Counted from the first letter of the stretch, positions 47,229-64,000 are shown. The stretch: DNA of 64,000 bases from Rhodococcus sp. HNM0563 (GCF_012726195.1 NZ_JAASAF010000005.1:186001-250000); one strand, 5' to 3'. Translations and numbers: made by a program. Notes: a model not told the origin generated them from the sequence alone.

Positions 47229-47996
47229 TCACGCTCGTTCGCTGTCACGTTCCTCGTCGGCGAACTCACCGGCGCCGAAGTACGCGGATTCGACCCGATC
47301 ACGTTCGCGAAGGAGTGCATCGGCCTTGCCCTCGAGCACTACCCGGCCGTGGTTGAGAACAAGCGCCCGGTCGGACACCGCCAGCGCGAGACCCACATGC
47401 TGCTCCACGAGCACGACGCCGATTCCTTCCGCGCGGGCCAGGTCGCGGATGGCAGGCAGCATCTGCTCGACGACCATCGGCGCCAGCCCGAGGCTCATCT
47501 CGTCGACCATGAGCAATCGCGGTTCGGCGAGCAGTGCCACTGAGATCGCCAGCATCTGCTGCTCGCCGCCGGAGAGTAGCCCCACTGTCCGGGACCGCAG
47601 CTTCGCCAGGGCAGGAAAACGCTCCAACACCGCCTGCTCGCGGCGCTGGTCGGGTCGTCGGCGGGCCAGCCGGAGATGCTCACGCACCGTCATGGACGGG
47701 AACAGCCCTCGGTCGTCGGGGACGAAGCGCATGCCTCTGCGCGCCATCCGGTAGGGCCGGCTGCTGTCCACCGGCCGGCCCAGGACCGTCACCTGTCCAC
47801 TCATCGTGGGGAGCACACCGGCGAGCGACAACAGGGTGGTGGTCTTTCCGGCGCCGTTGGGCCCCAGAATCGAGAGCACTTCACCGGCCGCGACGGAGAG
47901 GTTCACGTCGGCGACCGCGACGACGCCGTTGTATCCGGCGGTGAGAGCCTCTGCGGTGAGGACCGGGGCAGTGTCTGTGGAGTCAGCATCAGCCAT
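47229..47996 (-). CDS. livF: Branched-chain-type ABC transporter ATP-binding protein LivF
   Basis: 255-residue ATPase subunit of a Liv-type importer. Walker A ILGPNGAGKTTTLLSLAG near residue 43, signature LLSGGEQQMLAISVALL near residue 140, and Walker B PRLLMVDEMSLGL are intact. The YNGVVAVADVNLSVAAGEVLS start and the QHVGLALAVSDRALVLNHGRV ending are LivF-type. Its start overlaps the livG stop by 8 bases. It is the last gene of the minus-strand cluster and is convergent with rlmN across 9 bases. Confidence 0.93.
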   Translation of the reverse strand: MADADSTDTAPVLTAEALTAGYNGVVAVADVNLSVAAGEVLSILGPNGAGKTTTLLSLAGVLPTMSGQVTVLGRPVDSSRPYRMARRGMRFVPDDRGLFPSMTVREHLRLARRRPDQRREQAVLERFPALAKLRSRTVGLLSGGEQQMLAISVALLAEPRLLMVDEMSLGLAPMVVEQMLPAIRDLARAEGIGVVLVEQHVGLALAVSDRALVLNHGRVVLEGKADALLRERDRVESAYFGAGEFADEERDSERA

Positions 47997-48822
47997 GGGT
48001 GGTCTCCATCGGCGCGCCCAGATATGCAGCGATCACGGCGGGATCCTTTCTGGCCTGGTCCGGAGTTCCCGAGAAGATGACCTTGCCGAACTCGAGGACG
48101 TAGATGCGATCGCACACTCCCAGTACCAGCGACATGTCGTGGTCGATCAGCAGGGCACCGGGCCCGTTCCGGACGACCGCCCGAATGCGTTCGGCGAACT
48201 CGACGCTCTCCTGACTGTCGAGGCCTGCAGCGGGTTCGTCCAGCAGGAGGACGCGACAATTACCGACGAGTGCGCGCGCGACACCGACGAGCTTCTGCTG
48301 CCCGAGCGTGAGATCCCTTGCGAGAGTGTATCCGACGTCGGCGAGCCCGACCGCTCGTAGCGTTGCATCCACGGTCTCGTCGGGGCCGCCCCGCCGACGC
48401 CCGATCAGGTCGCGCCACAGCGTCGTGAGACCGCCCGGCCGCATCGCCGCGATGACGTTCTGGTTCACGGCCAGGTTCGGGAAGAGTTCACCCGACTGCC
48501 ATGTGCGCGAGAGACCGGTGCGGCGACGCCGATGCGGCGGGAGTCCGTTCATCGGAGTGCCGTCGACGCTGATCGTTCCCTCGTAGTCGATGAATCCGGT
48601 GACTGCGTCGACGAATGTCGTCTTACCGGCACCGTTCGGTCCGATCAGGCCGACGATCTCGCCGGGATGCACTTCCAGCGACACGTTCTCGTTTGCCACG
48701 ACACCGCCGTAGCGCACGGTGATGTCCCGCGCCGACAACCCGCCTCGCGCCTCATCGGGAGATCCGGAATCAGGAAGAATGGAATCAGCTCGTGCGGGAG
48801 GGATTTTCGTGGAGTCAGGCAT
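47989..48822 (-). CDS. livG: Branched-chain-type ABC transporter ATP-binding protein LivG
   Basis: 277-residue second ATPase subunit. An N-terminal extension of about 25 residues precedes LSARDITVRYGGVVANENVSL. Walker A is IGPNGAGKTTFVDAVTG, the signature is DLTLGQQKLVGVARAL (LTLGQ in place of LSGGQ, common in LivG), and Walker B is VLLLDEPAAGLD. DHDMSLVLGVCDRIYVLEFG ends the ATPase core. Start overlaps the permease gene stop by 8 bases, the same overlap as livG/livF. Confidence 0.93.
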   Translation of the reverse strand: MPDSTKIPPARADSILPDSGSPDEARGGLSARDITVRYGGVVANENVSLEVHPGEIVGLIGPNGAGKTTFVDAVTGFIDYEGTISVDGTPMNGLPPHRRRRTGLSRTWQSGELFPNLAVNQNVIAAMRPGGLTTLWRDLIGRRRGGPDETVDATLRAVGLADVGYTLARDLTLGQQKLVGVARALVGNCRVLLLDEPAAGLDSQESVEFAERIRAVVRNGPGALLIDHDMSLVLGVCDRIYVLEFGKVIFSGTPDQARKDPAVIAAYLGAPMETTHG

Positions 48823-50827
48823 CTGCCACCGTCACCTTTCCGTGGTCGATCTCGTCGCCGGTTTCGGAAACGGGAGAATCTGTCGCGACTGCTGGGTCGC
48901 GCAGCCTGGCACGTAATAGAGCGCTGAGTCTGCCTGCCTCACCGGCGATTCCGATCGGATTCAGGATCGCAGTGATGATCAGCGCGATCCCGGAGATCAG
49001 AGCGTAGTAGTCGCCCAGGTCGAAGACGTTGTGTACCAGCACGTAGACGATTCCCAGCGGACCGATGATGCCTGCGATCGCCGCACCACTGAACGAGGTG
49101 ATGCCGCCGAGATACGCGACCGCCAGCACCTGCAGCCCGACGAACACGGTGAACGACTCGGCCGAGAGCTGACCGGCGCTGTATCCGATGAGGCAGCCTG
49201 CGACCCCGGCGATGAACGCGGACAGTCCGAACCCGATGAGCTTGGTCGACCGGACGTCGATTCCCGCGGCCGCGGCGGCCCGCTCGTTCGCCCGCACTGC
49301 GAGGAAGGCACGCCCGGTGTCGCCCGAGGCGATCCGGATGAACGCCCACACCGTGATCGCCGCGACGATCAGGACCGTGAACGAGAACGACAGCCGTGCG
49401 ATATCGCTGCCCTCGCGCACACCGAGGTTCAGGCCGAACAGCGTGGGGTTCGCGATCGGATTCCCTGACGGCGGCGTCAGACTGTAGTTGTTGAAGATGA
49501 ACCGCTCGATCGCCAGTGCTGCAGCGATGGTGACGATGGCCAGCTGAGCACCACGAATCCGGAAGGCGGGCAACGCCACCAGCATGCCGAGCAGCGCGGC
49601 CACGAGCGAGCAGAAGACGAGCGCGATCGGGAACGGCATACTCCAGTTCGTCGTCACCTTCGAGAGGGTGAACCCCGCTGCACCGGCGAACGCCGCCTGC
49701 GCGAGGGAGATCTGGCCGAGGTAGCCGGTGATGACCACATACGACAACGCCAGCAGCATCAGAATGATCGAGTACGTCAGACCGAATCGATAGGTGCCGG
49801 ACGATACCGCGAGGAGCACACCGGTCACGACGATCACGAGTGCGGCGGGGATCGGACGGAAGCGCGGCACCACAACGTCCGGCAGCTTGACGGTCTGCAG
49901 TGACCCACGCGAGGGCAACCGCCCCCCGAACACGAACAGCACGACGATGACGACGAAGAACGGCACGACCTGATCGACGCCGGACTGCGCCCACGTGGGC
50001 CACCAGCTCTCACCGGCGAGCAGGTTGAGCACCGACTGGAACGCCCCGAGCACCAGCGACGCGATCGCAATCGTCGCGACAGACTCCATCCGCGCAACCA
50101 GGAGCACCGCGAGCGCCGGAACGACGAGCAGGGAGTAGTTCAGCGGATTGAGGCCCGTCAGGGACGCCCCGAGCAGGACACCGATCGTGCTGACCACCGA
50201 GGCCATGACCATCGCGATCGCCGCGAGCCGATCCGGTGAGAACCCCAGAAGCGTGGCGCCCCGCTCGTTCTCCGCTGCCGCGCGAGTTGCTGCGCCGGCC
50301 CTGGTGAAGCGGAAATATGCCCAGATCAGCACCGAGAACACGGCCATGATCGCGACCATCACGATCTCCGCCGACGACACGGAGGTGCCGAACAGCGAGA
50401 TCGACCCGGACGGGATCATCGATTCGATCGGGATGCTGTTCGGCCCGAATCTGATGACCACCAACGCTTGGACGGTGAGCATCAGCGCGACGGAGACCAC
50501 CACCTGGGCCAGGGCCGGTGCACGACGCACCGGCCTGAACACCAGGTAGTGGGTCACGACCCCGAGCAGGACCGCCATCACCAGGCCGATCGCCAAGGCA
50601 GCAGGTACCGATGGCGCCTCGTCGAATTCGATACTGCCGATCGGCAGGACCAGCGTGCCGTCGATGAGCAACTGCGCGTAGACGTACGCACCCCACATCG
50701 CGGTCGCGCCTTGCGCGAAGTTGATGATCCCCGTCGAGCGATAGACGAGGAGCAATCCGTTGGCGAGGCCGATGTATACCGCGGCGAGGCCGAACCCCAG
50801 GACGATGAACTGCAGATACGTGCTCAT
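48815..50827 (-). CDS. Fused LivH-LivM permease of a Liv-type ABC importer
   Basis: 670-residue membrane protein that joins both permease halves. Residues 1-300 are LivH-like (YLQFIVLGFGLAAVYIGLANGLLLVYRSTGIINFAQGA; GSISLFGTSVSS; MVMASVVSTIGVLLGASL). A short charged linker around residue 305-335 (GGRLPSRGSLQTVKLPDVVVPRF) leads to a LivM-like half (YSIILMLLALSYVVITGYLGQISLAQAAFAGAAGF; AIVTIAAALAIERFIFN; FALIAGI-type end). LivH and LivM are usually separate genes; fusions occur in some actinobacteria. The substrate of such systems ranges from branched-chain amino acids to amides, urea and aromatic acids. Confidence 0.92.
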   Translation of the reverse strand: MSTYLQFIVLGFGLAAVYIGLANGLLLVYRSTGIINFAQGATAMWGAYVYAQLLIDGTLVLPIGSIEFDEAPSVPAALAIGLVMAVLLGVVTHYLVFRPVRRAPALAQVVVSVALMLTVQALVVIRFGPNSIPIESMIPSGSISLFGTSVSSAEIVMVAIMAVFSVLIWAYFRFTRAGAATRAAAENERGATLLGFSPDRLAAIAMVMASVVSTIGVLLGASLTGLNPLNYSLLVVPALAVLLVARMESVATIAIASLVLGAFQSVLNLLAGESWWPTWAQSGVDQVVPFFVVIVVLFVFGGRLPSRGSLQTVKLPDVVVPRFRPIPAALVIVVTGVLLAVSSGTYRFGLTYSIILMLLALSYVVITGYLGQISLAQAAFAGAAGFTLSKVTTNWSMPFPIALVFCSLVAALLGMLVALPAFRIRGAQLAIVTIAAALAIERFIFNNYSLTPPSGNPIANPTLFGLNLGVREGSDIARLSFSFTVLIVAAITVWAFIRIASGDTGRAFLAVRANERAAAAAGIDVRSTKLIGFGLSAFIAGVAGCLIGYSAGQLSAESFTVFVGLQVLAVAYLGGITSFSGAAIAGIIGPLGIVYVLVHNVFDLGDYYALISGIALIITAILNPIGIAGEAGRLSALLRARLRDPAVATDSPVSETGDEIDHGKVTVADA

Positions 50828-50910
50828 GCGCTACTCCGTTGCGGGTATGTCGTCAACTGCGTGTCTGTCGTCGACGGGGTCGAACGGCCTCCTCGCGCAG
50901 GGGGCGGCCG

Positions 50911-52137
50911 TCAGGAGGTGGGCATCAACGAAGGATCGAGATCGATGTATCCGGCGTCCTCCACTGACCGCAGCGTTCCGTCCTCCTGCACTTCGAAGAA
51001 GATCGCCTGCGCATTGCACGTGGTAGCCACACCGGGCCACTGTTGCCCGTCGCAGGTCACGGTCGGGCCGGCGAACGTCGGGAAATCCTTCAGTCCCTTG
51101 AAGGTGTCGGTGACGGTGGTCGCGGTGATCTCCTCCGACCCGGACATGATCTCCGCGATGTTGACCACGGCCGCGAATGTGTAGATCGACCGAGAGGAGA
51201 GTTCGTCGCCGTATCCGACGGCGTCCATGGAGTCCGCGAAGATGTCCAACTGCTCCTGTACCTCGGCGGGCGCGGAGTCCTTGGCGAGAGGCACCCACAG
51301 CCGGGGCTGGGTGACGATGCCTGCGGCATCGGCTCCCATATCGTCGATGAATTGTGAGCAGGATCCTGCCAGGATCGTGTCGTCGTAACCCTGCCGGCGC
51401 AGAGCCTGGAACAGGCCGGTGCAGCCGTCCTCGGGGAGGGCGATGACGCCGGCCATGTCCGGGTCGTCGGAAAGCTGCGTCGCTGCCACGACATTCAAGT
51501 TGGCGCCCGAAGCCGGCGGGTACTGGACGGCGACGTCGATCCCCATCTTGTCGGCGATCGGCATGATCAGATCATCGACGTACGCGTGGGAAGTGGGCGA
51601 CTCGTTGACAGCGAGCGAAGCAGTGGTCTTCCCCATGGTGTCGAGCACCGACATGCTCGAGAGCGCGGCGAACGACACCGGCCCGGTGAAGTAGAACGCT
51701 TGCCCGTATTCGGCGGAATCCGCGACGAACGATCCCGCGAGCGTCCCGACGATGGGGATCTGCGCCGACGCCAGAATCGGCACCGCCGCACCCATGCTCT
51801 GGTCGACTGCGTCGATCACGAGCGGCAGGCCCTTCGAGACGAAGCCGTTGGCGCAGCTGATCGCGGTCTCGGGGCTGCCATCGCCCCCGCACACATCGAC
51901 TTCGAGGGGCCGCCCGTCGATACCACCGAGCACTTCGTTCACGTAATGCACGCCGGCCTCGAGACCGTACGCCGTCTGCGGATACGCGGACGCGCCCTTG
52001 ATCGGTGCCAACGCGCCGATGACGATCGGCTCACCGCTGGGAGTGACTCCGGCACTGTTGTCCCCGCCGTCGGAGCTGCACGCCGACAGGGCAAGTGCAG
52101 CAACTGCAGCGATGACACCGATATGTCGCTTCTTCAC
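50911..52137 (-). CDS. Liv-type ABC transporter substrate-binding lipoprotein
   Basis: 408-residue periplasmic-binding-protein-like lipoprotein (Peripla_BP_6/LivK family). The lipoprotein signal MKKRHIGVIAAVAALALSACSS has its lipidation cysteine at about residue 20. The mature domain starts EPIVIGALAPIKGASAYPQTAYGLEAGVHY, a typical type I binding-protein fold. Ligand residues cannot be read from sequence. It lies 83 bases upstream of the fusion permease in the transcription direction and directly after the catabolic genes, so it probably imports their substrate. Confidence 0.92.
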   Translation of the reverse strand: MKKRHIGVIAAVAALALSACSSDGGDNSAGVTPSGEPIVIGALAPIKGASAYPQTAYGLEAGVHYVNEVLGGIDGRPLEVDVCGGDGSPETAISCANGFVSKGLPLVIDAVDQSMGAAVPILASAQIPIVGTLAGSFVADSAEYGQAFYFTGPVSFAALSSMSVLDTMGKTTASLAVNESPTSHAYVDDLIMPIADKMGIDVAVQYPPASGANLNVVAATQLSDDPDMAGVIALPEDGCTGLFQALRRQGYDDTILAGSCSQFIDDMGADAAGIVTQPRLWVPLAKDSAPAEVQEQLDIFADSMDAVGYGDELSSRSIYTFAAVVNIAEIMSGSEEITATTVTDTFKGLKDFPTFAGPTVTCDGQQWPGVATTCNAQAIFFEVQEDGTLRSVEDAGYIDLDPSLMPTS

Positions 52138-52159
52138 GTGTACGTCCCACTTTCTCGAA

Positions 52160-52756
52160 TCAGTCGCGGGAGGAGACAGGATGGTCGGGCAGATACGGAA
52201 CGAGACCTGGTTCGGGCCGGACTTCGAACGAGCGCAGCGCGGTCGCGAGCATCGAGTAGCAGCCCACGGTGAACACGACGTCCATCAGCTGCCGACTGTC
52301 GAACTCGACCGAGAGCACAGCCCACGTATCGTCGCCGATCGCGCCGTCGCCGATCAGCTCGTCGGTGGCGGTCAGTAGCGCCCGCTCGATCGGCGACCAG
52401 CCGTCCGTGTCGGGTCCTACTTCGATGCGGGCGATCTCGCCGGCGGTGATGCCCGCTCGCTCCGCGAGGATGACGTGCTGGGCCCATTCGTATTCCGCGC
52501 GGCGGAGGTGGGCGATACGAAGAACGAGAAGCTCCCGGTGCCGGACCGACAGGGTGGACTGTGCCAGCAGGTGCCGGTTGAAGCTCAGGAACGCCATCGC
52601 CAGCGAAGGATGCTGCGCCAAGGTTCCGAGCAGGTTCGTCCCGGGCTGCCTGTTGTCCTCGTCCGGAGTGCTCGCCACGGCTGATCGGAAACCGTTGATG
52701 TAGGTTGCGATCTCTTCGGTCCACTCGTCCTCGGGAAGAGGGGGTATCCGGGACAT
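52160..52756 (-). CDS. Carboxymuconolactone decarboxylase-like (AhpD-fold) protein
   Basis: 198-residue helical protein of the CMD family. The core LSVRHRELLVLRIAHLRRAEYEWAQHVILAERAGITAGEIARI shows the E-W-x-x-H signature of the decarboxylase-like branch in place of the redox C-x-x-C of AhpD. Such proteins are common next to aromatic and terpenoid degradation genes, but few have known reactions. The start ATG 52756 is chosen from the conserved beginning MSRIPPLPEDEW; AGGACACC lies upstream. Confidence 0.85.
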   Translation of the reverse strand: MSRIPPLPEDEWTEEIATYINGFRSAVASTPDEDNRQPGTNLLGTLAQHPSLAMAFLSFNRHLLAQSTLSVRHRELLVLRIAHLRRAEYEWAQHVILAERAGITAGEIARIEVGPDTDGWSPIERALLTATDELIGDGAIGDDTWAVLSVEFDSRQLMDVVFTVGCYSMLATALRSFEVRPEPGLVPYLPDHPVSSRD

Positions 52757-52800
52757 TGTGCGTAGGTGTCCTTTCGATTCGGGCGGAAGGCGGAGGCAGG

Positions 52801-53544
52801 TCAGGTGTTGCGTCCGCCGTTGACGCCGATCATCTGCCCGGTGATGTAGCCGGCTTCGTCGCTCACCAGGAATGCGCATGTCGCGGCGATGTCCTCGGGC
52901 TGTCCGATCCTGCCTACCGGCGTCTTGGCGGTCTGCAGATCGAGATCGACGAATCCCTTGGCAACGGTGCTGCGCAACATCGGGGTGTCGATGAAGCCCG
53001 GCGGAATCGTGTTGACCGTGATCCCGAATTTGCCGAACTCGAGCGCAAGGCTCTTCGTGAGCCCGACGACGCCCGACTTCGCGGACACGTAAGGGGACAG
53101 GCCGGGGGATCCGCTGTGCACACTCGACGAGGAAATGTTGACGATGCGCCCCCACCCCTCGTCGATCATGTCCGGGATTACGAGTTGGCAGCAGTCGAAG
53201 GTGGCGGTGAGGTTCACGGCGAGCGATTTCTGCCACGCGTCGGCGGTGATGTCCAGAAATGGGGACGGGATCGACATCCCGGCGTTGTTGATCAGGACCG
53301 TCGGGGGAGTCAGTCGTGCTCGCACGTCGTCGACGGCCGCCTCGAGTGCGTCGCGATCGGTGACGTCCACCTGCAGACCGAGTGCTTTACCGCCTGCACC
53401 GGCGATCGATGCGGCGACGGACTCTGCTGCGCCGCCGTCGAGATCGAAGATCGCCACCAGGTTGCCGTCGGCGGCAAGACGCCGGGCGATCGCCTCACCG
53501 ATTCCGGACGCCGCACCCGTCACGATGGCGGTGCGTTCACTCAT
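52801..53544 (-). CDS. Short-chain dehydrogenase/reductase
   Basis: 247-residue classical SDR. TAIVTGAASGIGEAIARRL (TGxxxGxG, residues 4-22), INNAGMS (NAG), catalytic Ser in IVNISSSSVHSG, YVSAKSGVVGLTKSLALEF (YxxxK near residue 152), and DEAGYITGQMIGVNGGRNT at the end are all present. It most resembles 3-oxoacyl-ACP reductase/secondary alcohol dehydrogenase types. ATG overlaps the TauD-type gene stop by four bases. Substrate unknown. Confidence 0.9.
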   Translation of the reverse strand: MSERTAIVTGAASGIGEAIARRLAADGNLVAIFDLDGGAAESVAASIAGAGGKALGLQVDVTDRDALEAAVDDVRARLTPPTVLINNAGMSIPSPFLDITADAWQKSLAVNLTATFDCCQLVIPDMIDEGWGRIVNISSSSVHSGSPGLSPYVSAKSGVVGLTKSLALEFGKFGITVNTIPPGFIDTPMLRSTVAKGFVDLDLQTAKTPVGRIGQPEDIAATCAFLVSDEAGYITGQMIGVNGGRNT

Positions 53545-54368
53545 TTGATCGCCTCGGTACCGAGGAGGGTCGAACGGTGCATCCTGCGGGGCTTCGCGCG
53601 ATCGAAAGCGCAGGCTCGATGCGCGAGCCCGGTGTTGTCCCAGATCACCGTATCGCCGACCGACCAGGTGTGTCGATACACCAGCTCTGGTGCGGTGGCA
53701 CGATTTTCGAGGTCGCGCAACAACGCCCGGCCTTCGTCGATGTCCATCCCGACTATGTGGGAAGCAGTCGCGCCGAACACCAGTGACCGCCGGCCGGATT
53801 CGTGCTCCCACACGAGGGGGAGTTCACGCACGGCGCGCGAAGCCCATTCCTTCACCTGTTCGTCGGTCGGGTTCGGATATGTCAGGCGCTGAATGGCCTC
53901 GAACGTGTGAACCACCCGGAGCGTGCCGAAATACTCCTTCTCCTCGTCCGAAAGGGCTTCGTAGGCGGCGTAGGTGCTCGCGAACTCGGTCTCACCACCC
54001 TGCTCCGCTGTCACGTGTGCGGTCAGAATCGAGGCCTTTGCCGGGATGGCGTCAAGAGCACCGTCGATGTGCCAGTAGTCGTTGCTGGCGAAATACTCCT
54101 TGTTCGGATTGTCGGGCTCGAAGCTGATCTCCATGATTTCCGGGATCCGGTACTTGGGGAACAGTGCGAGCTCGCCCAACCTCCGGCAGAACTCGACCTG
54201 AGCAGGATCGTCGAGGTGCAGTTCGCGGAACAGAATGACGCTGTGCTGCTCCAGCAGGTCGAGAAGTGCTGCAGGGAGCCCGTCATCGGTGAGCAGACGA
54301 TCGATGTCGACGTCAGTCACCTCCACGCCGACGAGGTTTCCGAGTTTCTTGGTAGCAAGCGTATGCAT
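53541..54368 (-). CDS. TauD/TfdA-family alpha-ketoglutarate dioxygenase
   Basis: 275-residue non-haem iron dioxygenase. The iron-binding H-x-D is in YWHIDGALDAIPAKAS near residue 100. The distal His is in IWDNTGLAHRACAFD, and the 2-oxoglutarate-binding Arg is in RRMHRSTLLG near the C terminus. Related enzymes hydroxylate taurine, 2,4-D or alkyl sulphates, or desaturate. I use ATG 54368, which has GAGAGGC upstream; an in-frame extension to 54497 overlaps the next gene. Its place in this oxidative cluster suggests hydroxylation or ether cleavage of an intermediate. Confidence 0.9.
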   Translation of the reverse strand: MHTLATKKLGNLVGVEVTDVDIDRLLTDDGLPAALLDLLEQHSVILFRELHLDDPAQVEFCRRLGELALFPKYRIPEIMEISFEPDNPNKEYFASNDYWHIDGALDAIPAKASILTAHVTAEQGGETEFASTYAAYEALSDEEKEYFGTLRVVHTFEAIQRLTYPNPTDEQVKEWASRAVRELPLVWEHESGRRSLVFGATASHIVGMDIDEGRALLRDLENRATAPELVYRHTWSVGDTVIWDNTGLAHRACAFDRAKPRRMHRSTLLGTEAIK

Positions 54369-54393
54369 GGTGCCTCTCTTCGATGCGTCCGCG

Positions 54394-55895: not shown

Positions 55896-55920
55896 CCGAA
55901 CTCCTCCTGCGTATGGTCGA

Positions 55921-56466: not shown

Positions 56467-56467
56467 G

Positions 56468-57901
56468 TCAATTGCCGTCCTCGGGTGTGTAACCGAGGAT
56501 GCCCTTGATCTCGAGGTAGTCGTGGAAGCCGAACTCGCCCCACTCGCGCCCATTTCCGCTCTTCTTGTACCCCCCGAACGGCGCCCCGAAGTCGAACGCG
56601 TCATTGATCGCAACGTTTCCGACGCGGATCCGTCGTGCCACCTGTCGGGCCAGCTCGAGATCCGTGCCGGCCACGAAGCCGGCGAGTCCGTAGTCGGTGT
56701 CGTTCGCGATCTCGATCGCATGGTCGATGCTGTCGTAACCCAGGATCGTGAGGACCGGGCCGAAGATCTCCTCGCGCGCGATGGTCATGTCGTTCTTGAC
56801 ATCGGCGAAGACGGTGGGCTGCACGAAGTAGCCGGCGGTCAGACCCTCGGGCCGCCCGACACCACCGGCCACGAGGGTCGCACCCTCGTCGATGCCCCTC
56901 TGGATGAGACCTTGAACCTTCTCGAACTGGGCCTTCGACACAACGGGACCGATCGCGGCATCGCCGGTCGGGTCGCCCACCGTCACCTTCGAGGCCGCCT
57001 CGCGTGCGGCGGCAATGGCTTCCTCCATGCGCTCTCCGGGGACCAGCATTCGCGAGGGAGCACTGCAGGTTTGACCAGAGTTCATCATCATCGTCGCGAC
57101 ACCCTTGCCGACGTTCTCGGCAAAGTCGGCGTCGTCGAGAATGATGTTCGGACCCTTGCCGCCGAGTTCTTGCGTGACTCGCTTGACACCGGCAGCGGCA
57201 TTGGCCGCGACGTCGATGCCTGCGCGTGTCGACCCGGTGAACGACACCAGGTCGACATCGGGGTGCCCGGACAGCGCGCGCCCGACGCCGGGGCCGTCGC
57301 CCTGGACGAGATTGAAGACACCTGCGGGAACTCCGGCCTCGTCGAGAATCTCGGCGAAGACCTGGCCGTTGAAGGGCGACTGCTCTGACGGCTTGAGCAC
57401 CATCGTGCAGCCGGTGGCCAGAGCCGGGAACACCTTCACCGAGATGAGGCTGATCGGCCAGTTCCACGGTGTGATCAGGCCGCACACCCCGATGGGTTCC
57501 TTGACGACGAGGCTGCCCCCGCGCTGTTCCTCGAAGACGAAGTTCCGGAGCACCTCGATCGCGGTGGTGAGATGCCCGAGGCCGAGATTGACCTGGAAAC
57601 CGCTCGCCAATGCGGCGGGAGCACCCATTTCCTCGGTCAGTGCAGCAGCGATGTCGCCCATTCGGCGCTGGTACACGTCGAGGATCTTCTCGAGCAGTGC
57701 GAGTCGCTCCTCGCGGCTGGTCGCCGACCACGCGGGGAAGGCGCGTCGCGCGGCGGCGACGGCCTTGTCGACGTCTGCAGACGACCCGAGCGACACCGTA
57801 CCGGCGACCTCTTCGGTCGCGGGGTTGATGACCTCGAAGGTGTCGGACTGGGCCGGATCGGTCCACTGTCCATCGATGTAGAACTTCAGATATTCACGCA
57901 T
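56468..57901 (-). CDS. Aldehyde dehydrogenase (NAD(P)+)
   Basis: 477-residue ALDH-superfamily enzyme oxidising an aldehyde to the acid. The motifs are in order: GLITPWNWPISLI, KPSEQSPF, FTGSTRAGIDVAANAAAG, the catalytic Glu in VTQELGGKGPNII and the catalytic Cys in NSGQTCSAPSRML. EEIFGPVLTIL and GGYKKSGNGREWG close the fold. Sequence resembles the 3-succinoylsemialdehyde/gamma-aminobutyraldehyde-type group. It follows the ThDP enzyme and could oxidise an aldehyde that enzyme releases. Confidence 0.94.
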   Translation of the reverse strand: MREYLKFYIDGQWTDPAQSDTFEVINPATEEVAGTVSLGSSADVDKAVAAARRAFPAWSATSREERLALLEKILDVYQRRMGDIAAALTEEMGAPAALASGFQVNLGLGHLTTAIEVLRNFVFEEQRGGSLVVKEPIGVCGLITPWNWPISLISVKVFPALATGCTMVLKPSEQSPFNGQVFAEILDEAGVPAGVFNLVQGDGPGVGRALSGHPDVDLVSFTGSTRAGIDVAANAAAGVKRVTQELGGKGPNIILDDADFAENVGKGVATMMMNSGQTCSAPSRMLVPGERMEEAIAAAREAASKVTVGDPTGDAAIGPVVSKAQFEKVQGLIQRGIDEGATLVAGGVGRPEGLTAGYFVQPTVFADVKNDMTIAREEIFGPVLTILGYDSIDHAIEIANDTDYGLAGFVAGTDLELARQVARRIRVGNVAINDAFDFGAPFGGYKKSGNGREWGEFGFHDYLEIKGILGYTPEDGN

Positions 57902-57953
57902 GGCTACCCGGTTCTCTCGTCTGATCCTGTACGAAGTTCACTGCTGAGTGAAA

Positions 57954-58003
57954 GTCACTGCCGGCCTTCGGCATACCGTGTCACTGCTGGCCTTCGGCAT
58001 ACC
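57954..58003. repeat. Tandem duplication of the 3' end of the ThDP-enzyme gene
   Basis: A 24-base unit is present at 57954-57977 and 57980-58003 (period 26, one mismatch). The right copy encodes the last residues (YAEGQQ) and stop of the ThDP enzyme on the minus strand. The left copy lies after that stop in the gap before the aldehyde dehydrogenase and repeats the YAEG codons and stop. Confidence 0.9.
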
Positions 58004-59687
58004 AGGTGCGGAATTCGTCGTAGCTCGGCATTTCTTCCGAGTTGGCCTTGGGATCCACGGCGACGTGGATGACGCCCGGCCTACCGCTGGCGTAGGCCCG
58101 CTTGATTGCGGGTGCAATGTCTTCGTCGCGTTCGACGTACTCGCCGTAGCAGCCGAAGCCTTCCGCGACCTTGTCGAGTCGGGTTTCCTTGCTCCAATGG
58201 ACGCCTGTCTCGAGTGAGTCGTGCCCGAAAGTGCGCTTGTAGACGCCGACTTCGAGACCCCAGGCGTAGTCGACACCGACGACACACACGAGGGGCAGAC
58301 CCACTCGCGCGGCCGTCTCCAGTTCGGCGATGTGGAACTGGAACGACGAGTCTCCGGTGATCAGCATCATCGGGCGCTTACCGCCGTCAGCGACACCGGC
58401 GCCGACAGCGTACGGGAGACCGGTGCCGAGGTGCCCGAAGTTCTGGTTCCACATCACGTCGTGCGGCTTGGCCTGCGAATAGGTCCAGCCGAAGATCGTG
58501 GTGGCGCCACCGTCGCGGACCATGATGCCGTCGGCGGGGAACGCCTTCGTGGCCTCGACGATCAGGCGAGCCGGATGCACGGGGGACATCCCGGACGGTG
58601 CGGTTTCGGCAAGTTCGGCGAGCTGTGCAGCCTCCTGCTTGATCCAGCCGTCGAGTTCGGGTGTCGGGGTACGCGGAGAATCCTTCAGTGCATCGACGAG
58701 CTGCGGGACGATCGCTCGTAGATCGCCGACCAACGGAACATCGATCGGGCGATTGACACCGATGGACGTCGGATCCTGCTCGATGAGGATCCACTTGCGG
58801 TTCGCTTCGTTCGCGACCCAGTGCCGACCACGTCCGAAGTGGACGGGCTCGCCGAGTTCGGTGCCGATGGCGAGACACAGGTCGGAGTTCACGACGGCAT
58901 CGATGGATGCTGCCGAGAAACCGTACGGGAAGGTGCGGTCCTCGAGGCCTTCGATGAAGGACGTACCACCGGACGTCTGGATGACCGGGCATGCCATGAG
59001 GTCGGCGAGTTCCTTGACGGACGCGCCTCCCCTGGCGGTGTGCACGCCGTGACCGACGAGGAGAACAGGTTGTTTTGCGGACCCGATCAAGTCGGCTGCC
59101 TCGGCGACCAGATCGGCTCCGGCGGTCTGGCCCACGAGGCGGTACTTCTCCGGGGGAAGGACGGGCGGAGCGTCGATCTCCTCGAGGATGACGTTCTGCG
59201 GGTACTCGATGTAGACCGGGCCGGGCGTGCCCGAGAGCGCCTTACGCAGGCCTTCGCGGATGATCTCGTCGGTCTGCTCGGGGTACTCGATGCTCGCGTG
59301 ATACTTCACGGAGTTCTCGACGAGCGCCATCTGCTGGACGAACTGGATACGACCACGCCGAACACGCTGTTCGGTGATGCGGGCGCGCTGACCACCGAGG
59401 AAGATCACCGGAGAGTTCTCGACCTTGGCACACATGATCGCCCCGGAAAGATTCGCGAGACCGGGGCCGAGCGTGCCGATACACACCGCGGCCTTGCCCG
59501 TCATGCGGGAGACGGCCTCCGCCATGAAACCGGCGGACTCCTCGTGATGGGGAGCCACCACATTCCAGCCGCGTTCCTCCGCGAGGCGGAACAGATGAAC
59601 GAAGTTCGGGTCAGGAATGCCGAAGAGCGTATTGATTCCTTCGGCTTCGAAGAGATCCAGAATTCGTTCGTAGACCTTAACTGACAT
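57981..59687 (-). CDS. Thiamine-diphosphate-dependent enzyme (acetolactate synthase-like)
   Basis: 568-residue ThDP enzyme with the three-domain layout of the acetolactate synthase/benzoylformate decarboxylase group. The catalytic Glu is in APHHEESAGFMAEA near residue 51, followed by GTLGPGLANLSGAI. The central domain is LVGHGVHTARGG...CPVIQTSGG. The C-terminal ThDP motif begins GDSSFQFHIAELETAARV but ends VGVDYAWGLE, so the usual Asn-Asn of GDG-x(26)-NN is Val-Asp. It may decarboxylate or cleave a 2-keto or 2-hydroxy acid derivative rather than make acetolactate; no small regulatory subunit gene is adjacent. GAGGGA site upstream. Confidence 0.88.
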   Translation of the reverse strand: MSVKVYERILDLFEAEGINTLFGIPDPNFVHLFRLAEERGWNVVAPHHEESAGFMAEAVSRMTGKAAVCIGTLGPGLANLSGAIMCAKVENSPVIFLGGQRARITEQRVRRGRIQFVQQMALVENSVKYHASIEYPEQTDEIIREGLRKALSGTPGPVYIEYPQNVILEEIDAPPVLPPEKYRLVGQTAGADLVAEAADLIGSAKQPVLLVGHGVHTARGGASVKELADLMACPVIQTSGGTSFIEGLEDRTFPYGFSAASIDAVVNSDLCLAIGTELGEPVHFGRGRHWVANEANRKWILIEQDPTSIGVNRPIDVPLVGDLRAIVPQLVDALKDSPRTPTPELDGWIKQEAAQLAELAETAPSGMSPVHPARLIVEATKAFPADGIMVRDGGATTIFGWTYSQAKPHDVMWNQNFGHLGTGLPYAVGAGVADGGKRPMMLITGDSSFQFHIAELETAARVGLPLVCVVGVDYAWGLEVGVYKRTFGHDSLETGVHWSKETRLDKVAEGFGCYGEYVERDEDIAPAIKRAYASGRPGVIHVAVDPKANSEEMPSYDEFRTWYAEGQQ

Positions 59688-60597
59688 GCGTATTTCCCTC
59701 CGTGGCTATCGCAAAGCTTCTCGTGATGTGGTCGACGTGGCCCGACACGGCGGGCAGGATCCACGGGTCGCTGGTGTCGCGGATGACATCGATGTTCTCG
59801 GCGACCTCGTCGATCGACCAGGACGGTCGATACACGCCCGGGGTCTCGGCGATGTAGACCTTCGCGACGCGGCCCGCGATGGCAGCGAACATTTCGCCGG
59901 TCACCGAGCAGGATTCGTGAGCGAGCCACCCGACGACAGGCGCCGCGAGTTCCGGCCCCATGGGTGGGTACGCAGAGGTATCGAGCCCCTCCGCCAATCG
60001 TGTCAGTGCCGCAGGAATGATCACGTTGGAGCGGACGCCGTGCTCTGCCCCTTCGATTGCCGCGACGTTCGACAATCCGATCATCCCTGCTTTCGACGCC
60101 GCGTAGTTGGCGACATTGGCGTTGCCGTAGATTCCGCCGATCGACGAGGTGAGCACGATCCTGCCGTATCCGGCTTCACACATCAGCGGAAATGCGGGGC
60201 GGACAACGTGGAACGCGCCTCGCAAGTGGACATCGAGCACCGCATCGAAATCTTCGTACGACATCTCGGTCAGCGACGCGTAGCGATTGTTGCCCGCATT
60301 GTGGATGAGGATGTCGATTCGGCCGTAGTTGTCGCGTGCGGCCTGAATGATCGCCTCGCCACCGTCTGCGGTTGCGACGGACTCGACGCACGCAACCGCC
60401 TCGCCGCCGGCGGCCCGGATCTCCCGGACCACATCCTCGGCCGGACCGGCGTCGAGATTTTCACCGTTGATCGCGGCCCCGGAGTCGTTGACCACGACCT
60501 TCGCCCCGAGCGATGCGAGCAGCAGTGCGTAGTCGCGTCCCAGCCCTCGTCCGGCGCCGGTGACGACGGCGACGCGGTCGTCGAATCGGAGTGTCAC
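59677..60597 (-). CDS. Short-chain dehydrogenase (MFE-2/3-hydroxyacyl-CoA dehydrogenase-like)
   Basis: 306-residue SDR with DRVAVVTGAGRGLGRDYALLLASLGAKVVVNDSG, a start that matches the (3R)-hydroxyacyl-CoA dehydrogenase domain of multifunctional enzyme type 2. It also shows ILIHNAGNNR, VLTSSIGGIYG and NYAASKAGMIGLSN (YxxxK). The C-terminal extension of about 70 residues is also MFE-2-like (VAKVYIAETPGVYRP). GTG start at 60597 shares four bases with the monooxygenase stop, and its stop overlaps the ThDP gene start by 11 bases. Confidence 0.88.
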   Translation of the reverse strand: MTLRFDDRVAVVTGAGRGLGRDYALLLASLGAKVVVNDSGAAINGENLDAGPAEDVVREIRAAGGEAVACVESVATADGGEAIIQAARDNYGRIDILIHNAGNNRYASLTEMSYEDFDAVLDVHLRGAFHVVRPAFPLMCEAGYGRIVLTSSIGGIYGNANVANYAASKAGMIGLSNVAAIEGAEHGVRSNVIIPAALTRLAEGLDTSAYPPMGPELAAPVVGWLAHESCSVTGEMFAAIAGRVAKVYIAETPGVYRPSWSIDEVAENIDVIRDTSDPWILPAVSGHVDHITRSFAIATEGNTHVS

Positions 60598-62420
60598 TTG
60601 TCGAGCACCAGCCCTTCCAGTTCGCCCGTGTCGCGCCACGCCTGAAGCAGGTCGCTCAGTTCGTAGAAGCCGCCCCAGAAGGGCTCACCCAGGAAGGATC
60701 GGCCGTTCGGTTCGCCCTCGCTGTTGTAGTAGCCGGGGGTGCATTCCGAGACGAATCGGCTGTTGTCGACGGTGTTGTCGCGGATGGTCTGGATCCAGGA
60801 CTCTTCGGCTTCGGCCGTGGGTTCGACGCGCGTGGCTCCGCGGGTCAGCGCTTCTTTCACGATGTAGGAGATGTGATCGGCCTGCTGCTCGAACATCAAG
60901 GTGGTGGCCGCGGTCACGCCGCCCTGGACGAATCCCGTGGCGAAATGGTTGGGGAAGCCGTGCGCCATGATGCCGTGCAGCGTGCGGAAGCCCTTGCCCC
61001 AGTGGTCGTAGAGCGAGACACCGCCACTGCCGGCGAACGGCTTGATGTCGAACTGGCGCTCGAGGGAGGTGGTGATCTCGAAACCGCTCGCGAAGACGAT
61101 GCAGTCGAACTCGTGCTCGACACCCCCCACGATGATGCCCTTCTCGGTGATGCGTTCGACACCTTGCGTGTCGGACACGTCGACGAGCGTGACGTTGGGC
61201 CGGTTGAACGTGGGCAGATACTCGTCGTTGAACACCGGCCGCTTGCACATGTTGCGGTAGTACGGTTTGAGTTTCTCTGCCGTCTCGGGGTCTTCGACGA
61301 TCGATTCGACCCGCTGGCGCAGCCGTTCCATCGCCCGATAGTCTTCGATCTCTTTGAGTTCCAAGAACTTCTCAGGGTCGGCGAGCGCAGCCCAGCCGTT
61401 CGTCTCGTTGAGCTTCGCGGCGAGGTTTCGGGAGACCTCGGTCCAGCCGTCACAGATGAGGTCCGGTTCGCCCGGGCTGTAGAACGCGAAAGCCGCATTG
61501 TGGAAGTTGCGCTGCCGCGCGTCGCGCCACCCGGGTTCGAGGGACTTCACCCATTCGGGGTCGGTCGGATAGTTGGCGCGTTCGAAGATGTACGACGGGG
61601 TGCGCTGGAAGACCGTCAGGTGCTTGGCGCCGCGTGCCAGGTGGGGGATCGCCTGGACCGCTGTCGATCCTGTTCCGATGATGGCAATCCGCTTGTCGCC
61701 GATCTTGTCCAGGCCGCCGTGGAGATCGCCGCCGGTGTAGTCGTAGTCCCAGCGGGCGGTGTGGAAGGTGTGTCCCTTGAACTCCGAGATACCGGGGATG
61801 CCGGGGAGTTTCGGCTTGTTGTAGGGGCCTTGGGCCATGATGATGAACCGGGCGCGGAGTTCGTCGCCGCGGTTCGTGCCGATGCGCCAGCGGTGGATCT
61901 CGTCGTCCCACTCGAGTGATTCGATCAGAGTGTGGAAAAGCGCGTGATCGTAGAACCCGAACTGTTTGCCGATGCGCTGAGCATGCTCGAAGCACTCGTC
62001 GCCCTTGGAGAACTTCTCCTTCGGCATGTACCCGGTCTCTTCGAGAAGCGGAAGGTAGCAGTAGGCGTCCGAGTCGATCTGGATGCCGGGGTACCGGTTC
62101 CAGTACCACACTCCTCCGAAATCGCCTCCCAATTCCACGATCCGGAAGTCGGTGACACCTGCCTGCTGGAGTCGGTGTGCCGCAATGAGACCGCAGAATC
62201 CGCCCCCGAGGATCACCACGTCGATCTCGTCGGTGAGTGGATCACGGGGCGTCACCGGGAGATGTGGATCCGCAGCGTAGAAATCGTCGAATCCGTCGCC
62301 GGTCTCGATGTACTGCTGCTGGCCGTCCGACCGAAGGCGCTTGTCGCGCTCGAGGAGATACTTCTGTCGTAAGGCTTCCTGATCGACGTCGGGTGTCGGC
62401 GTAGGCGCGCAGTTCTGCAT
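60594..62420 (-). CDS. Baeyer-Villiger-type FAD/NADPH monooxygenase
   Basis: 608-residue class B flavoprotein monooxygenase. FAD Rossmann motif DVVILGGGFCGLIAAHRL near residue 67, the Baeyer-Villiger fingerprint F-x-G-x3-H-x3-W as FKGHTFHTARW near residue 205, and the NADPH Rossmann motif IAIIGTGSTAVQAIPHLA near residue 228 are intact. An N-terminal region of about 60 residues (ALRQKYLLERDKRL) is like that of cyclododecanone/4-hydroxyacetophenone-type enzymes. Likely reaction: a ketone to an ester or lactone using O2. I use ATG 62420 with GAGGACA upstream. Confidence 0.92.
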   Translation of the reverse strand: MQNCAPTPTPDVDQEALRQKYLLERDKRLRSDGQQQYIETGDGFDDFYAADPHLPVTPRDPLTDEIDVVILGGGFCGLIAAHRLQQAGVTDFRIVELGGDFGGVWYWNRYPGIQIDSDAYCYLPLLEETGYMPKEKFSKGDECFEHAQRIGKQFGFYDHALFHTLIESLEWDDEIHRWRIGTNRGDELRARFIIMAQGPYNKPKLPGIPGISEFKGHTFHTARWDYDYTGGDLHGGLDKIGDKRIAIIGTGSTAVQAIPHLARGAKHLTVFQRTPSYIFERANYPTDPEWVKSLEPGWRDARQRNFHNAAFAFYSPGEPDLICDGWTEVSRNLAAKLNETNGWAALADPEKFLELKEIEDYRAMERLRQRVESIVEDPETAEKLKPYYRNMCKRPVFNDEYLPTFNRPNVTLVDVSDTQGVERITEKGIIVGGVEHEFDCIVFASGFEITTSLERQFDIKPFAGSGGVSLYDHWGKGFRTLHGIMAHGFPNHFATGFVQGGVTAATTLMFEQQADHISYIVKEALTRGATRVEPTAEAEESWIQTIRDNTVDNSRFVSECTPGYYNSEGEPNGRSFLGEPFWGGFYELSDLLQAWRDTGELEGLVLDK

Positions 62421-62449
62421 GTGAGTGTCCTCGGGTAAGGGGACGGGGT

Positions 62450-63829
62450 TCACGCGAGGTCGCGTGGTGCCCCGGTACCCATGTAGGTGGCGAGATTGTG
62501 GTGAAGGCTGACGACGCTGCGTTCGCGGTAGGGATTGGGAACCGGACCGGCGAAACCTCGCGACTTCATCCCCTTCTGAACGGCGGCCATATTGTCGAAG
62601 TCCTGAGGAAGCACGGTGCGCCAGCCGGGGTCGTCCTGTGGGGTGTACTCCCATTCCGTCTCCGGCTCCTCGCCGGGCGGGAACAGCTCGAACACGGCAG
62701 CTTCGAATATGCACTTGTCCGGGTCGGAACCGTAGGGGCGCACGCGATAGCACAGCATGTTGTTCGGGGCATGCCCGATCTGGAAGTTCGGGAAGATCTG
62801 CCATGCGGTACCGGCTTTTGCTACGTCTTCCGGCGCGATCGTCGGCCACGTGACTCCGCGAGCCTCGTCATCGCGTCGGGCTGACTCGAGCCAGTGCCGC
62901 ATCACCTGGTCGGGGGGTGTGCCCTCGGGGAGTTCGTCGACGAGGCGTCGTGCGGCCTGCACCAAAGTGTTCGTCGTATTGGTGTTCGCGTTCTCCCAGG
63001 TGAAGTTCTGCAACTGCATCGTCGAGATGCGTGCGTCGGGCCCGGATCCGACGCGGAGCTTGGCCTGGTTCTCGTCCATGCCCTTCGGTGCGTCGTACCC
63101 GATATTGCTGTGCTTACCCTGGTTTCGGGCCCAGCCGAGGAACGCTCCGAAGTTCATGAACTCGGGATGGGTGTAGGGGACGTGATAGGTCTCCATGAAT
63201 GCCTCGAGCGCAACCTTCCAGTTGCAGTCGAACACGAGCCATTTGCGCCACCGGTAGCGCATGTTCTCGAGCTGGAACGGGTCGAGCAGCGACGCGGCCG
63301 GTTCCAGGTAGTCGCGCAGCGGCTCACAGTCGGGATCCATGTTGATCCAGATCCAGCCGCCCCAGGTGTCGACGCGGACGTCCTTCAGATTTCGCTGCTG
63401 CGCCGACAGGCATCCTTTCCAGTCCTGGTCCTCGGGAGCGAATGTGTTGTTGCCCTCGAGGTCGTAGCGCCAACCGTGGAACCCGCACACGAATTGCCGG
63501 GCCTGTCCGCGAGCGTCGTGGGCGCCGTCGGGGACATCGACGAGGCTCCTGCCGCGGTGTGAACACACGTTGTGGTGGGCGCGGATGGTGTCCTCCGCGG
63601 TGCGCACGACGATGATCGAGTCATCGCAGATGTCGTAGGTGAGGTAATCGCCGACACGAGGAATCTCCTCGACACGGCCGACTTGCTGCCATATCTTGGC
63701 CCAGAGTTTGTCTCCTTCGGCCTTGGCGTAGTCGCGCGAGAGATATGCCTCGACGCCGATCGTCATCGGTTCGGAGAACGGTGCTGCCTCGGACGGGGTG
63801 TCTTTGATGTTGTCAACCGTGTCGGTCAT
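62450..63829 (-). CDS. Rieske non-haem iron oxygenase, alpha subunit
   Basis: 459-residue ring-hydroxylating-type oxygenase large subunit. The Rieske cluster ligands are C-S-H (NVCSHRGRSL) and C-x2-H (VCGFHGWRYDLEG), residues about 87-112. The catalytic mononuclear iron is in EAFMETYHVPYTHPEF with the two histidines near residues 215-220. The region between is of normal length. No beta subunit, ferredoxin or reductase gene is adjacent in the window, so partners must be elsewhere or beyond the right edge. GAGGAGGATC precedes the ATG. Confidence 0.92.
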   Translation of the reverse strand: MTDTVDNIKDTPSEAAPFSEPMTIGVEAYLSRDYAKAEGDKLWAKIWQQVGRVEEIPRVGDYLTYDICDDSIIVVRTAEDTIRAHHNVCSHRGRSLVDVPDGAHDARGQARQFVCGFHGWRYDLEGNNTFAPEDQDWKGCLSAQQRNLKDVRVDTWGGWIWINMDPDCEPLRDYLEPAASLLDPFQLENMRYRWRKWLVFDCNWKVALEAFMETYHVPYTHPEFMNFGAFLGWARNQGKHSNIGYDAPKGMDENQAKLRVGSGPDARISTMQLQNFTWENANTNTTNTLVQAARRLVDELPEGTPPDQVMRHWLESARRDDEARGVTWPTIAPEDVAKAGTAWQIFPNFQIGHAPNNMLCYRVRPYGSDPDKCIFEAAVFELFPPGEEPETEWEYTPQDDPGWRTVLPQDFDNMAAVQKGMKSRGFAGPVPNPYRERSVVSLHHNLATYMGTGAPRDLA

Positions 63830-63857
63830 GTGATCCTCCTCGTGAAACTGGGCTGAT

Positions 63858-64000
63858 TCAGCGAGTGATGGTGGCGCGGAATGTTTCGTCCTTGAGGAAC
63901 AGGGACGTGTGGTCAGCGCCCATGTGGGTCCATTTGAGGTTCAGGCCTCCGTCGACGAGCATCGTCTGTCCCGTGACATAGCCGGAGAGGTCCGAGAGCA
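63858..64000 (-). CDS. Short-chain dehydrogenase, C-terminal part (cut by window edge)
   Basis: Only the last 46 residues are visible. They contain LSDLSGYVTGQTMLVDGG, the classical SDR C-terminal motif, followed by a 26-residue tail (LKWTHMGADHTSLFLKDETF...) longer than usual. It lies 28 bases ahead of the Rieske gene in the transcription direction and is probably in the same operon, which therefore starts outside the window. Confidence 0.8.
   Translation of the reverse strand, partial: LSDLSGYVTGQTMLVDGGLNLKWTHMGADHTSLFLKDETFRATITR

Follow-up and report, generated by a model that had tools for sequence, protein, structure and literature searches.

The minus-strand run of genes at positions 47229-64000 of the 64,000-nucleotide stretch of DNA analyzed here (the window; Rhodococcus sp. 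HNM0563, GCF_012726195.1, NZ_JAASAF010000005.1:186001-250000) belongs to a larger locus of ∼43 kb and ∼37 predicted genes (47229-90148, counted from the window's first letter), bounded by rlmN on one side and dxr on the other. Its gene content and predicted control make it very likely that this is one inducible catabolic regulon. The explanation favored here, at a probability of about 0.6, is that the regulon would serve the oxidative breakdown of a bulky natural compound, poor in oxygen and probably of an alicyclic or terpenoid-like kind. Seven core genes encode an SMP-30-like protein (SMP30), two short-chain dehydrogenases/reductases (SDR_D and SDR_C), the alpha subunit of a Rieske oxygenase, a type I Baeyer-Villiger monooxygenase (BVMO), a thiamine diphosphate (ThDP)-dependent enzyme and an aldehyde dehydrogenase (ALDH).

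Genomic neighborhood analysis carries this assignment. GTDB was scanned with the ThDP protein as query, and the best 80 of 223 relatives were used for all locus counts given below; each locus comprised up to 10 kb on either side of the ThDP match, and orthologs were called at ≥50% identity and ≥45% coverage. All seven core genes occur together in 69 of the 80 loci, an association far beyond chance. Taken singly, BVMO is present in 79, SDR_C in 78, Rieske and ALDH in 77 each, SMP30 in 74 and SDR_D in 73, while ThDP is present in all 80 by selection. The closest named relatives in the scan, by identity of the ThDP protein, are Rhodococcus sp. SMB37 (98%) and then R. coprophilus (93%). Gene order is shuffled in several Mycobacterium loci and in one gammaproteobacterial metagenome-assembled genome (MAG), which argues against simple descent of a frozen block. 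Profile searches in 101 related genomes (E limits: ThDP 1e-60, Rieske 1e-100, SMP30 1e-100, and 1e-130 for a coenzyme A (CoA)-transferase of the CaiB type) found ThDP, Rieske and SMP30 in an identical set of 13 genomes, and CaiB in 11 genomes, every one of them inside that set. In a wider sample evenly drawn from the phylum, 9 of 396 genomes carry the ThDP gene (E≤1e-150). By synteny and profile distribution, the core genes have been kept and inherited together, which supports the view, first taken from the sequence alone (the sequence-only reading), that Rieske, BVMO, SDRs, ThDP and ALDH form one coherent unit.

A second line of evidence concerns control. A single regulator of the GntR type very probably controls the locus; the protein matches GntR-type models below their cut-offs only (best NanR, 65 bits), and its counterpart in Rhodococcus sp. 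USK13 is annotated FCD. Alignment of 29 intergenic regions between the GntR-type gene and the acyl-CoA dehydrogenase gene ACAD1 yields a strongly conserved block with the consensus AATCCTNANAAGGATAGCAATNNTTG, the predicted operator to which the GntR-type protein presumably binds. With up to three mismatches, this pattern has three matches in the whole 5.54-Mb genome, all at the locus, and the reversed pattern has none:

66477-66502: operator 1, before the SMP30-to-LivF operon
67547-67572: operator 2, between the GntR-type gene and ACAD1
76924-76949: operator 3, between the AcuI-MaoC-ACS operon and the Dpp-type importer

Two of these three sites played no part in building the motif. Across the 80 loci, 36 contain at least one site and none contains the reversed pattern; sites lie near GntR 31 times, near SMP30 28 times, near ACAD1 25 times, and once each near MDR and SDR_D, the position before SMP30 again having been left out of motif building. 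The locus thus shows the two features expected of a GntR-regulated operon, an adjacent regulator gene and a conserved operator before the target promoters.

The locus is laid out as follows. Gene starts were picked by eye, those of the carboxymuconolactone-decarboxylase-like protein (CMD), SDR_A, TauD, SDR_B, NTF2_B, SDR_C and BVMO being set below the longest open reading frame; the basis of each assignment is given in brackets.

Within the window, and across its end:
47229-47996, minus: LivF-like ATPase of a branched-chain-type importer (family search)
47989-48822, minus: LivG-like ATPase (family search)
48815-50827, minus: fused LivH-LivM permease of 670 aa with two BPD_transp_2 stretches (domain search)
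50911-52137, minus: Liv-type substrate-binding protein (SBP), Peripla_BP_6 (domain search)
52160-52756, minus: CMD, accessory (domain search)
52801-53544, minus: SDR_A, FabG type, accessory (family search)
53541-54368, minus: TauD/TfdA Fe(II)/2-oxoglutarate dioxygenase, accessory (family and domain search)
54394-54963, minus: NTF2_A, NTF2-like SnoaL_4 protein, accessory (domain search)
54960-55895, minus: SDR_B, accessory (family search)
55921-56466, minus: NTF2_B, NTF2-like SnoaL_4 protein, accessory (domain search)
56468-57901, minus: ALDH, core (NCBIfam search)
57981-59687, minus: ThDP-dependent enzyme, ALS/OXC/HACL/GCL/BAL group, core (profile, domain and residue comparison)
59677-60597, minus: SDR_C, best NCBIfam model PRK07791, core (NCBIfam search)
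60594-62420, minus: type I BVMO, core (NCBIfam and solved-structure search)
62450-63829, minus: Rieske oxygenase alpha subunit, core (PF00355/PF00848)
63858-64703, minus: SDR_D, core, crossing the window end with its 3' end inside (63858-64000)

Outside the window:
64711 to ∼66400, minus: SMP-30-like protein, head of the operon, ∼545-573 aa, start unsettled
66665-67480, minus: GntR-type regulator
67589-72849, plus: ACAD1, ACAD2, enoyl-CoA hydratase (ECH), ACAD3, ACAD4
72926-74632, minus: acyl-CoA ligase (ACS)
74663-75859, minus: MaoC
75871-76854, minus: AcuI-type acrylyl-CoA reductase
∼77112-84434, plus: Dpp-type importer with two binding proteins
84450-85253, minus: SDR
85318-86829, minus: second ligase
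∼86936-88114, plus: CaiB-type CoA-transferase
88066-89379, plus: class-I CoA-transferase
89345-90148, plus: second ECH

These coordinates bear out the unbroken minus-strand run at 47229-64000 (the widest gap from LivF to SDR_D is 83 bases) and the overlaps of 4-11 bases, which occur at 6 of 15 junctions. The gene families named in the sequence-only reading agree with the family and domain searches, and its complete Liv importer is indeed there, both permease domains being fused in one protein. Its count of sixteen genes comprises 15 complete genes and SDR_D, cut at the window end, and its four SDRs are three unless that cut gene is included. The full unit is larger, reaching ∼90.1 kb, and its description as a cluster with its own importer needs amending: the SMP-30-like head and the CoA-ester half also belong, and the Liv importer is not core. 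The statement that no regulator is visible does not hold, because the window edge hid the GntR-type gene lying just past it. On the flanks, rlmN lies at 46110-47219, and dxr, rseP and ispG follow from ∼90.5 kb (named by eye). rlmN adjoins the cluster also in Rhodococcus sp. HM1 (L029 in our numbering of loci; 1 of 80 loci within reach), so this location may be a shared chromosomal site. Searches for Rfam families and tRNAs found none within the 64-kb window.

The genes around the core are far more variable. TauD is found in 34 of the 80 loci, SDR_A in 32, CMD in 30, NTF2_A and SDR_B in 16 each and NTF2_B in 11. Of the set that the sequence-only reading put forward for a neighborhood search, Rieske, BVMO and ThDP do recur together, and TauD is accessory. 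A phytanate-type reading with TauD as 2-hydroxylase was dropped, since TauD is missing from most loci. Orthologs of the Liv SBP, LivHM and LivG occur in 2 of 80 loci each, both stretches stopping before LivF; the importer is thus a local addition and was rejected as a core component at the ≥50% identity level. Remoter Liv-like genes (26-44% identity) lie beside L042 and L048. The locus of the R. coprophilus type strain (L027) shows the full arrangement, with GntR, ACAD and Liv genes. The Dpp-type importer, found within 10 kb of the core in 1 of 80 loci (L081) and on the USK13 plasmid, was likewise ruled out as core. Williamsia faeni has two copies of the core, the standard one (L037) and the rearranged L081; the ThDP stretch of L081, as retrieved, translates with a stop. 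Genes of the CoA half lie within 10 kb of the core in 29 (CaiB), 28 (ACAD1), 23 (ACAD2), 13 (MaoC), 12 (ACS) and 8 (AcuI) of the 80 loci; stretches of this length under-count ACAD3/4, AcuI, MaoC, ACS, CaiB and the importers.

The regulon is probably mobile. A search of 72,556 plasmid records for the ThDP gene (E≤1e-120) returned four, from Rhodococcus sp. USK13, Mycobacterium branderi, Sphingobium RAC03 and Sphingobium V4. All seven core genes are matched on the USK13 and V4 plasmids; the RAC03 plasmid also has seven core matches, with ALDH and SMP30 each in two pieces, both unannotated, as if frameshifted. The M. branderi stretch carries ThDP, ALDH, Rieske, BVMO, SDR_C and CaiB, with SMP30 ∼70 kb off and no match to SDR_D in the stretch. 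There (L114), cytochrome P450s and mycofactocin-coupled SDRs lie around the core and may serve as a ketone-forming front end. On the RAC03 plasmid (L112), the core adjoins a cas9/cas2 CRISPR locus and an IS110 transposase, and an alpha/beta hydrolase gene lies beside SDR_D.

The BVMO is assigned with confidence to type I. It matches solved BVMOs over both Rossmann folds, most closely 5mq6 (416 bits, residues 5-573), ahead of PAMO (phenylacetone, 272 bits) and STMO (steroid, 243 bits); we take 5mq6 to be PockeMO, a polycyclic ketone monooxygenase. The translation, inspected by eye, contains the BVMO fingerprint motif FxGxxxHxxxW(P/D) as FKGHTFHTARWD. The best NCBIfam model, PtlE (neopentalenolactone D synthase, NF045818), scores 648 bits, below its cut-off of 1100. 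The adjacent Rieske protein exceeds the cut-offs of PF00355 and PF00848 and is a Rieske non-heme iron oxygenase, one of 15 Rieske domains above the family cut-off in this genome. It falls short of glycine betaine monooxygenase (best NCBIfam model GbcA, NF058607, 130 bits against a cut-off of 670). Its ETYHVPYTH segment, located by eye, places a Glu at the position of the bridging Asp of naphthalene dioxygenase, a replacement presumably shared with carnitine monooxygenase. Inspection by eye recognized no ferredoxin or reductase partner within the cluster. DNA identity to SMB37 drops to 80-86% over ∼60.5-64.0 kb, that is, across the BVMO-Rieske pair, and is mostly 86-97% elsewhere along the operon, with a smaller dip at TauD/SDR_A (83-89%). 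In the comparison with L027-L029, BVMO and Rieske diverge no more than the flanking DNA. Recombination in either this strain or SMB37 has probably replaced the BVMO-Rieske pair as a unit, and such a joint exchange would fit two enzymes that work on one shared, variable portion of the substrate.

The SMP-30-like protein at the head of the operon belongs to PF08450 (SGL, 59 bits against 26), has NHL repeats above the cut-off and scores 129 bits against 80 with NF033206 (ScyD/ScyE); its predicted structure is all-beta (mean pLDDT 88.6). In the CoA half, the reductase is a member of the AcuI equivalog NF051456 (546 bits against 440, over residues 1-325 of 325). The nearest solved structures to ACAD1 are Tcur3483 (6wy8/6wy9) and 4x28, which we take to be steroid-type heteromeric dehydrogenases, and MaoC has a single weak solved-structure match. 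Among solved structures the CaiB-type protein is nearest to formyl-CoA transferase 10uh (199 bits), scoring below the curated formyl-CoA transferase cut-off (TIGR03253, 186 bits against 504). A racemase was considered for this protein and rejected, the best racemase reaching 104 bits. SDR_C resembles HSD17B4.

For the ThDP enzyme, none of the 25 NCBIfam models among the matches listed reaches its cut-off: the 2-hydroxyacyl-CoA lyase (HACL) model NF058623 gives 173 bits against 600, oxalyl-CoA decarboxylase TIGR03254 186 against 739, and the best acetolactate synthase model, PRK08322, 259 against 509. In profile comparisons the enzyme is nearest to chains of acetolactate synthase, HACL/HACS (2-hydroxyacyl-CoA lyase/synthase) and oxalyl-CoA decarboxylase. 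Residue conservation was read from 38 aligned orthologs, in which E49, Q115 and E479 are invariant (38 of 38). E49 aligns with the HE of the synthase and corresponds to the Glu contacting N1' of ThDP (E65 in AcHACL), a residue common to the wider ThDP group. Q115 stands opposite the Glu of the 7ayg decarboxylase, with I114-Q115 in place of Y120-E121, and corresponds to the Gln that contacts the C-alpha oxygen of the substrate. In actinobacterial HACL a Gln likewise replaces the decarboxylase Glu, and E493 of HACL is the acid/base catalyst, corresponding to V484 of the Bacillus acetolactate synthase, according to PMC8760513. Gln is also found at position 115 in acetolactate synthases and is thus not diagnostic of a lyase. 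E479 lies opposite the Val in the YDMV stretch of an ancestral synthase, which stands in for BsALS itself, and that Val is taken to occupy the V484 position; the alignment to HACS chains is gapped at this site, and the neighboring model residues 481-488 are of low confidence. As to CoA-binding residues, the PR segment of the decarboxylase is PH here, with the His outside the conserved columns. Through this indirect mapping the residues fit a C-C lyase; cleavage of the substrate by this enzyme, as the sequence-only reading proposed, is plausible.

From the enzyme families, a tentative reaction sequence can be proposed. The substrate would enter via the Dpp-type transporter and, in this clade, also via the Liv-type importer (step 1). 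The Rieske enzyme would hydroxylate an unactivated carbon and SDR_D oxidize the alcohol to a ketone (step 2), beside which the BVMO would insert oxygen to give an ester or lactone (step 3). A hydrolase would then open the ester or lactone, the best candidate being the SMP-30-like protein as a putative lactonase (step 4), and the ThDP enzyme would cut a C-C bond beside a carbonyl or hydroxy-acyl group, with the ALDH oxidizing the released aldehyde (step 5). Finally (step 6), CoA ligases and the CaiB-type CoA-transferase would activate the acids; the heteromeric-type acyl-CoA dehydrogenases, MaoC/ECH and SDR_C would carry out beta-oxidation; and AcuI would reduce an acrylyl-CoA-like product towards propionyl-CoA. 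Both the substrate and the succession of steps 2 to 5 (Rieske/SDR_D, BVMO, hydrolase, ThDP/ALDH) are guesses.

Several observations weigh against the favored explanation. In the own genome, no operator match precedes the CaiB operon or the second ligase, and none is found in 44 of the 80 loci, including 20 of 20 from Mycobacterium/Mycolicibacterium. Another GntR-like gene, identified by eye, occurs in 16 of these 20 and adjoins SMP30 in at least five of them; this different gene and the operator-free loci indicate that control has probably been rewired there. The core is incomplete in 11 of 80 loci. Three of these (L044, L058, L063) are contigs of <15 kb, and in L089 and L105 the missing genes would fall where the stretch ends or beyond it. 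L042, L048 and L088 are without SDR_D only, and L057, L081 and the Halieaceae MAG L086 are without two to four core genes; L086 holds three of the seven, and the gammaproteobacterial loci are all MAG contigs. Gaps other than those at short contigs and stretch ends are real or unexplained. The two Sphingobium plasmid stretches, compared apart from a reductase gene cut by the end of L112, gave no match to CaiB, AcuI or ACAD at the limits used; the CoA half may therefore be optional. At the protein level, Foldseek places LRP-type tandem propellers first for the SMP-30-like model; these are generic propellers with poor superposition, and the result says nothing on activity. The VIA-align fold comparison of the ThDP model (mean pLDDT 75.5), with HACL/HACS chains at ranks 1 and 2, fails to separate lyase, synthase, carboligase and decarboxylase, which lie within ∼2 Z units.

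How the ThDP enzyme acts distinguishes two further readings, an HACL-type and a diketone/acyloin-type action, which have about equal odds; each is doubtful. In the former, it would be a 2-hydroxyacyl-CoA lyase in a CoA-dependent alpha-oxidation, splitting a 2-hydroxyacyl-CoA, itself formed by a CoA-transferase or ligase, into formyl-CoA and an aldehyde or ketone, the ALDH oxidizing the aldehyde and CaiB recycling the CoA of formyl-CoA. Neighborhoods in Mycobacterium/Mycolicibacterium are suggestive: CaiB is present in 20 of 20 loci and ends <200 bases from ThDP in 13, and the order SDR_C-CaiB-ThDP is seen. The affinity of CaiB to formyl-CoA transferase (10uh, 199 bits) points the same way, as do Q115, as in lyases, and the invariant E479 at the synthase residue that PMC8760513 equates with HACL E493. 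That mapping, however, runs via the ancestral synthase, with the HACS alignment gapped at the site, and both CaiB and ThDP score below the curated formyl-CoA transferase and HACL cut-offs. HACL/HACS chains take the top two ranks in the fold comparison, but acetolactate synthase, glyoxylate carboligase, benzaldehyde lyase (BAL) and oxalyl-CoA decarboxylase tie with them (∼2 Z). Moreover, CaiB is unmatched (E≤1e-130) in 2 of the 13 cluster-bearing genomes, one of them 75% complete, and in the Sphingobium stretches. An extended form is unlikely: an undescribed, horizontally mobile module common to Actinomycetota, Alphaproteobacteria and, as MAG contigs, Gammaproteobacteria, whose Rieske/BVMO fragmentation of a terpenoid-like ring compound would feed a ThDP lyase releasing formyl-CoA, with the CoA recycled by a dedicated CaiB-type transferase, amounting to bacterial alpha-oxidation within a ring-cleavage pathway.

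In the latter, the ThDP enzyme would be a 1,2-diketone or acyloin C-C hydrolase/lyase opening a ring made diketonic by the Rieske enzyme and an SDR, while the BVMO acts elsewhere. Rieske, SDR, ThDP and ALDH would then complete a path to a dicarboxylic acid, and cyclohexane-1,2-dione hydrolase (141 bits) and BAL (163 bits) belong to the same broad group in the ThDP profile comparison, but the former scores under the best synthases, decarboxylases and lyases.

Breakdown of abscisic acid (ABA) or another apocarotenoid, in which the BVMO would cleave the methyl ketone dehydrovomifoliol and the ALDH lead to rhodococcal acid, is improbable. The cluster is frequent among the Nocardia and Mycobacterium loci found, which are not known to have an ABA link. 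The idea stems from a species-level coincidence: R. globerulus AX7B grows on ABA (PMC12509608), and the core cluster is present in R. globerulus NBRC 14531 (L036). A BVMO has been suggested for the dehydrovomifoliol step (PMC9599779), and the sphingomonad Novosphingobium sp. P6W also degrades ABA (PMC6938937), but no gene is tied to ABA in these two papers, as far as consulted, or in PMC12509608. The degrader R. qingshengii (PMC12509608) is also absent from the best 80 of 223 loci.

A specialized-metabolite biosynthetic cluster, suggested by the resemblance of BVMO and TauD to PtlE (best NCBIfam match, 648 bits) and PtlD (74 bits) of pentalenolactone synthesis, is highly improbable, as these scores are far under the cut-offs (1100 and 550), no terpene cyclase, polyketide synthase or nonribosomal peptide synthetase was seen by eye among the locus translations, not all of which were family-searched, and the presence of two importers, of acyl-CoA dehydrogenases, of AcuI and of a regulator of the GntR type speaks for breakdown.

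On the favored reading, the core, with three unrelated genes sharing one distribution across 101 genomes, is a clearly delimited unit that recurs and that marks a catabolic capacity in soil Nocardia, Rhodococcus, Williamsia, Actinomadura and Mycobacterium relatives, its genes being scattered among generic names in genome annotation. With its adjacent regulator, its operator and its rlmN-dxr bounds, the locus can be put to direct test in laboratory Rhodococcus. Conservation is strong in both the ThDP enzyme and the SMP-30-like protein, and the family of the former could bear on one-carbon (formyl-CoA) biochemistry. The PMC literature searched, judged by titles and the opening lines of abstracts, describes no pathway for this gene set, subscription journals and preprints lying outside the search and absence from print not being established; to that extent the sequence-only proposal of an undescribed pathway stands.

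Parts of the regulon nevertheless resemble known systems. The alicyclic ketone pathways with a BVMO and a lactone hydrolase (cyclohexanone, camphor) follow the scheme proposed here, an alcohol giving a ketone, then a lactone, then a hydroxy acid that enters beta-oxidation, whereas in this locus the BVMO is of another subgroup, an SMP-30-like protein stands in place of an alpha/beta hydrolase, and ThDP and Rieske enzymes are added. The oxc/frc pair (oxalyl-CoA decarboxylase and formyl-CoA transferase) shares the ThDP-CaiB adjacency (13 of 20 Mycobacterium loci), but residue 115 is Gln here where the decarboxylase has Glu, and the oxalyl-CoA decarboxylase score is 186 bits against 739. The 3-hydroxypropionate to propionyl-CoA route (ACS, dehydratase, AcuI) is mirrored in the ACS-MaoC-AcuI run, with AcuI above the equivalog cut-off; here this predicted run lies inside an oxygenase regulon. 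Given its closeness to Tcur3483 and 4x28, ACAD1 is reminiscent of steroid side-chain beta-oxidation with its heteromeric dehydrogenases, but no steroid ring-cleavage genes were recognized by eye, and BVMO and ThDP are present. The Actinomycetospora lyase-HCL cluster, which converts 2-hydroxyisobutyrate to acetone and formyl-CoA, likewise combines GntR, a ThDP enzyme, ALDH and CoA activation in one induced cluster; it is without a BVMO, an SMP-30-like protein and AcuI in the accessible part of PMC7176365, and its lyase matches the ThDP enzyme at ∼142 bits (single sequence) to ∼158 bits (profile). Thus, while the individual steps resemble those of known pathways, the whole set is, judged by its genes, a well-defined, conserved and uncharacterized catabolic regulon.

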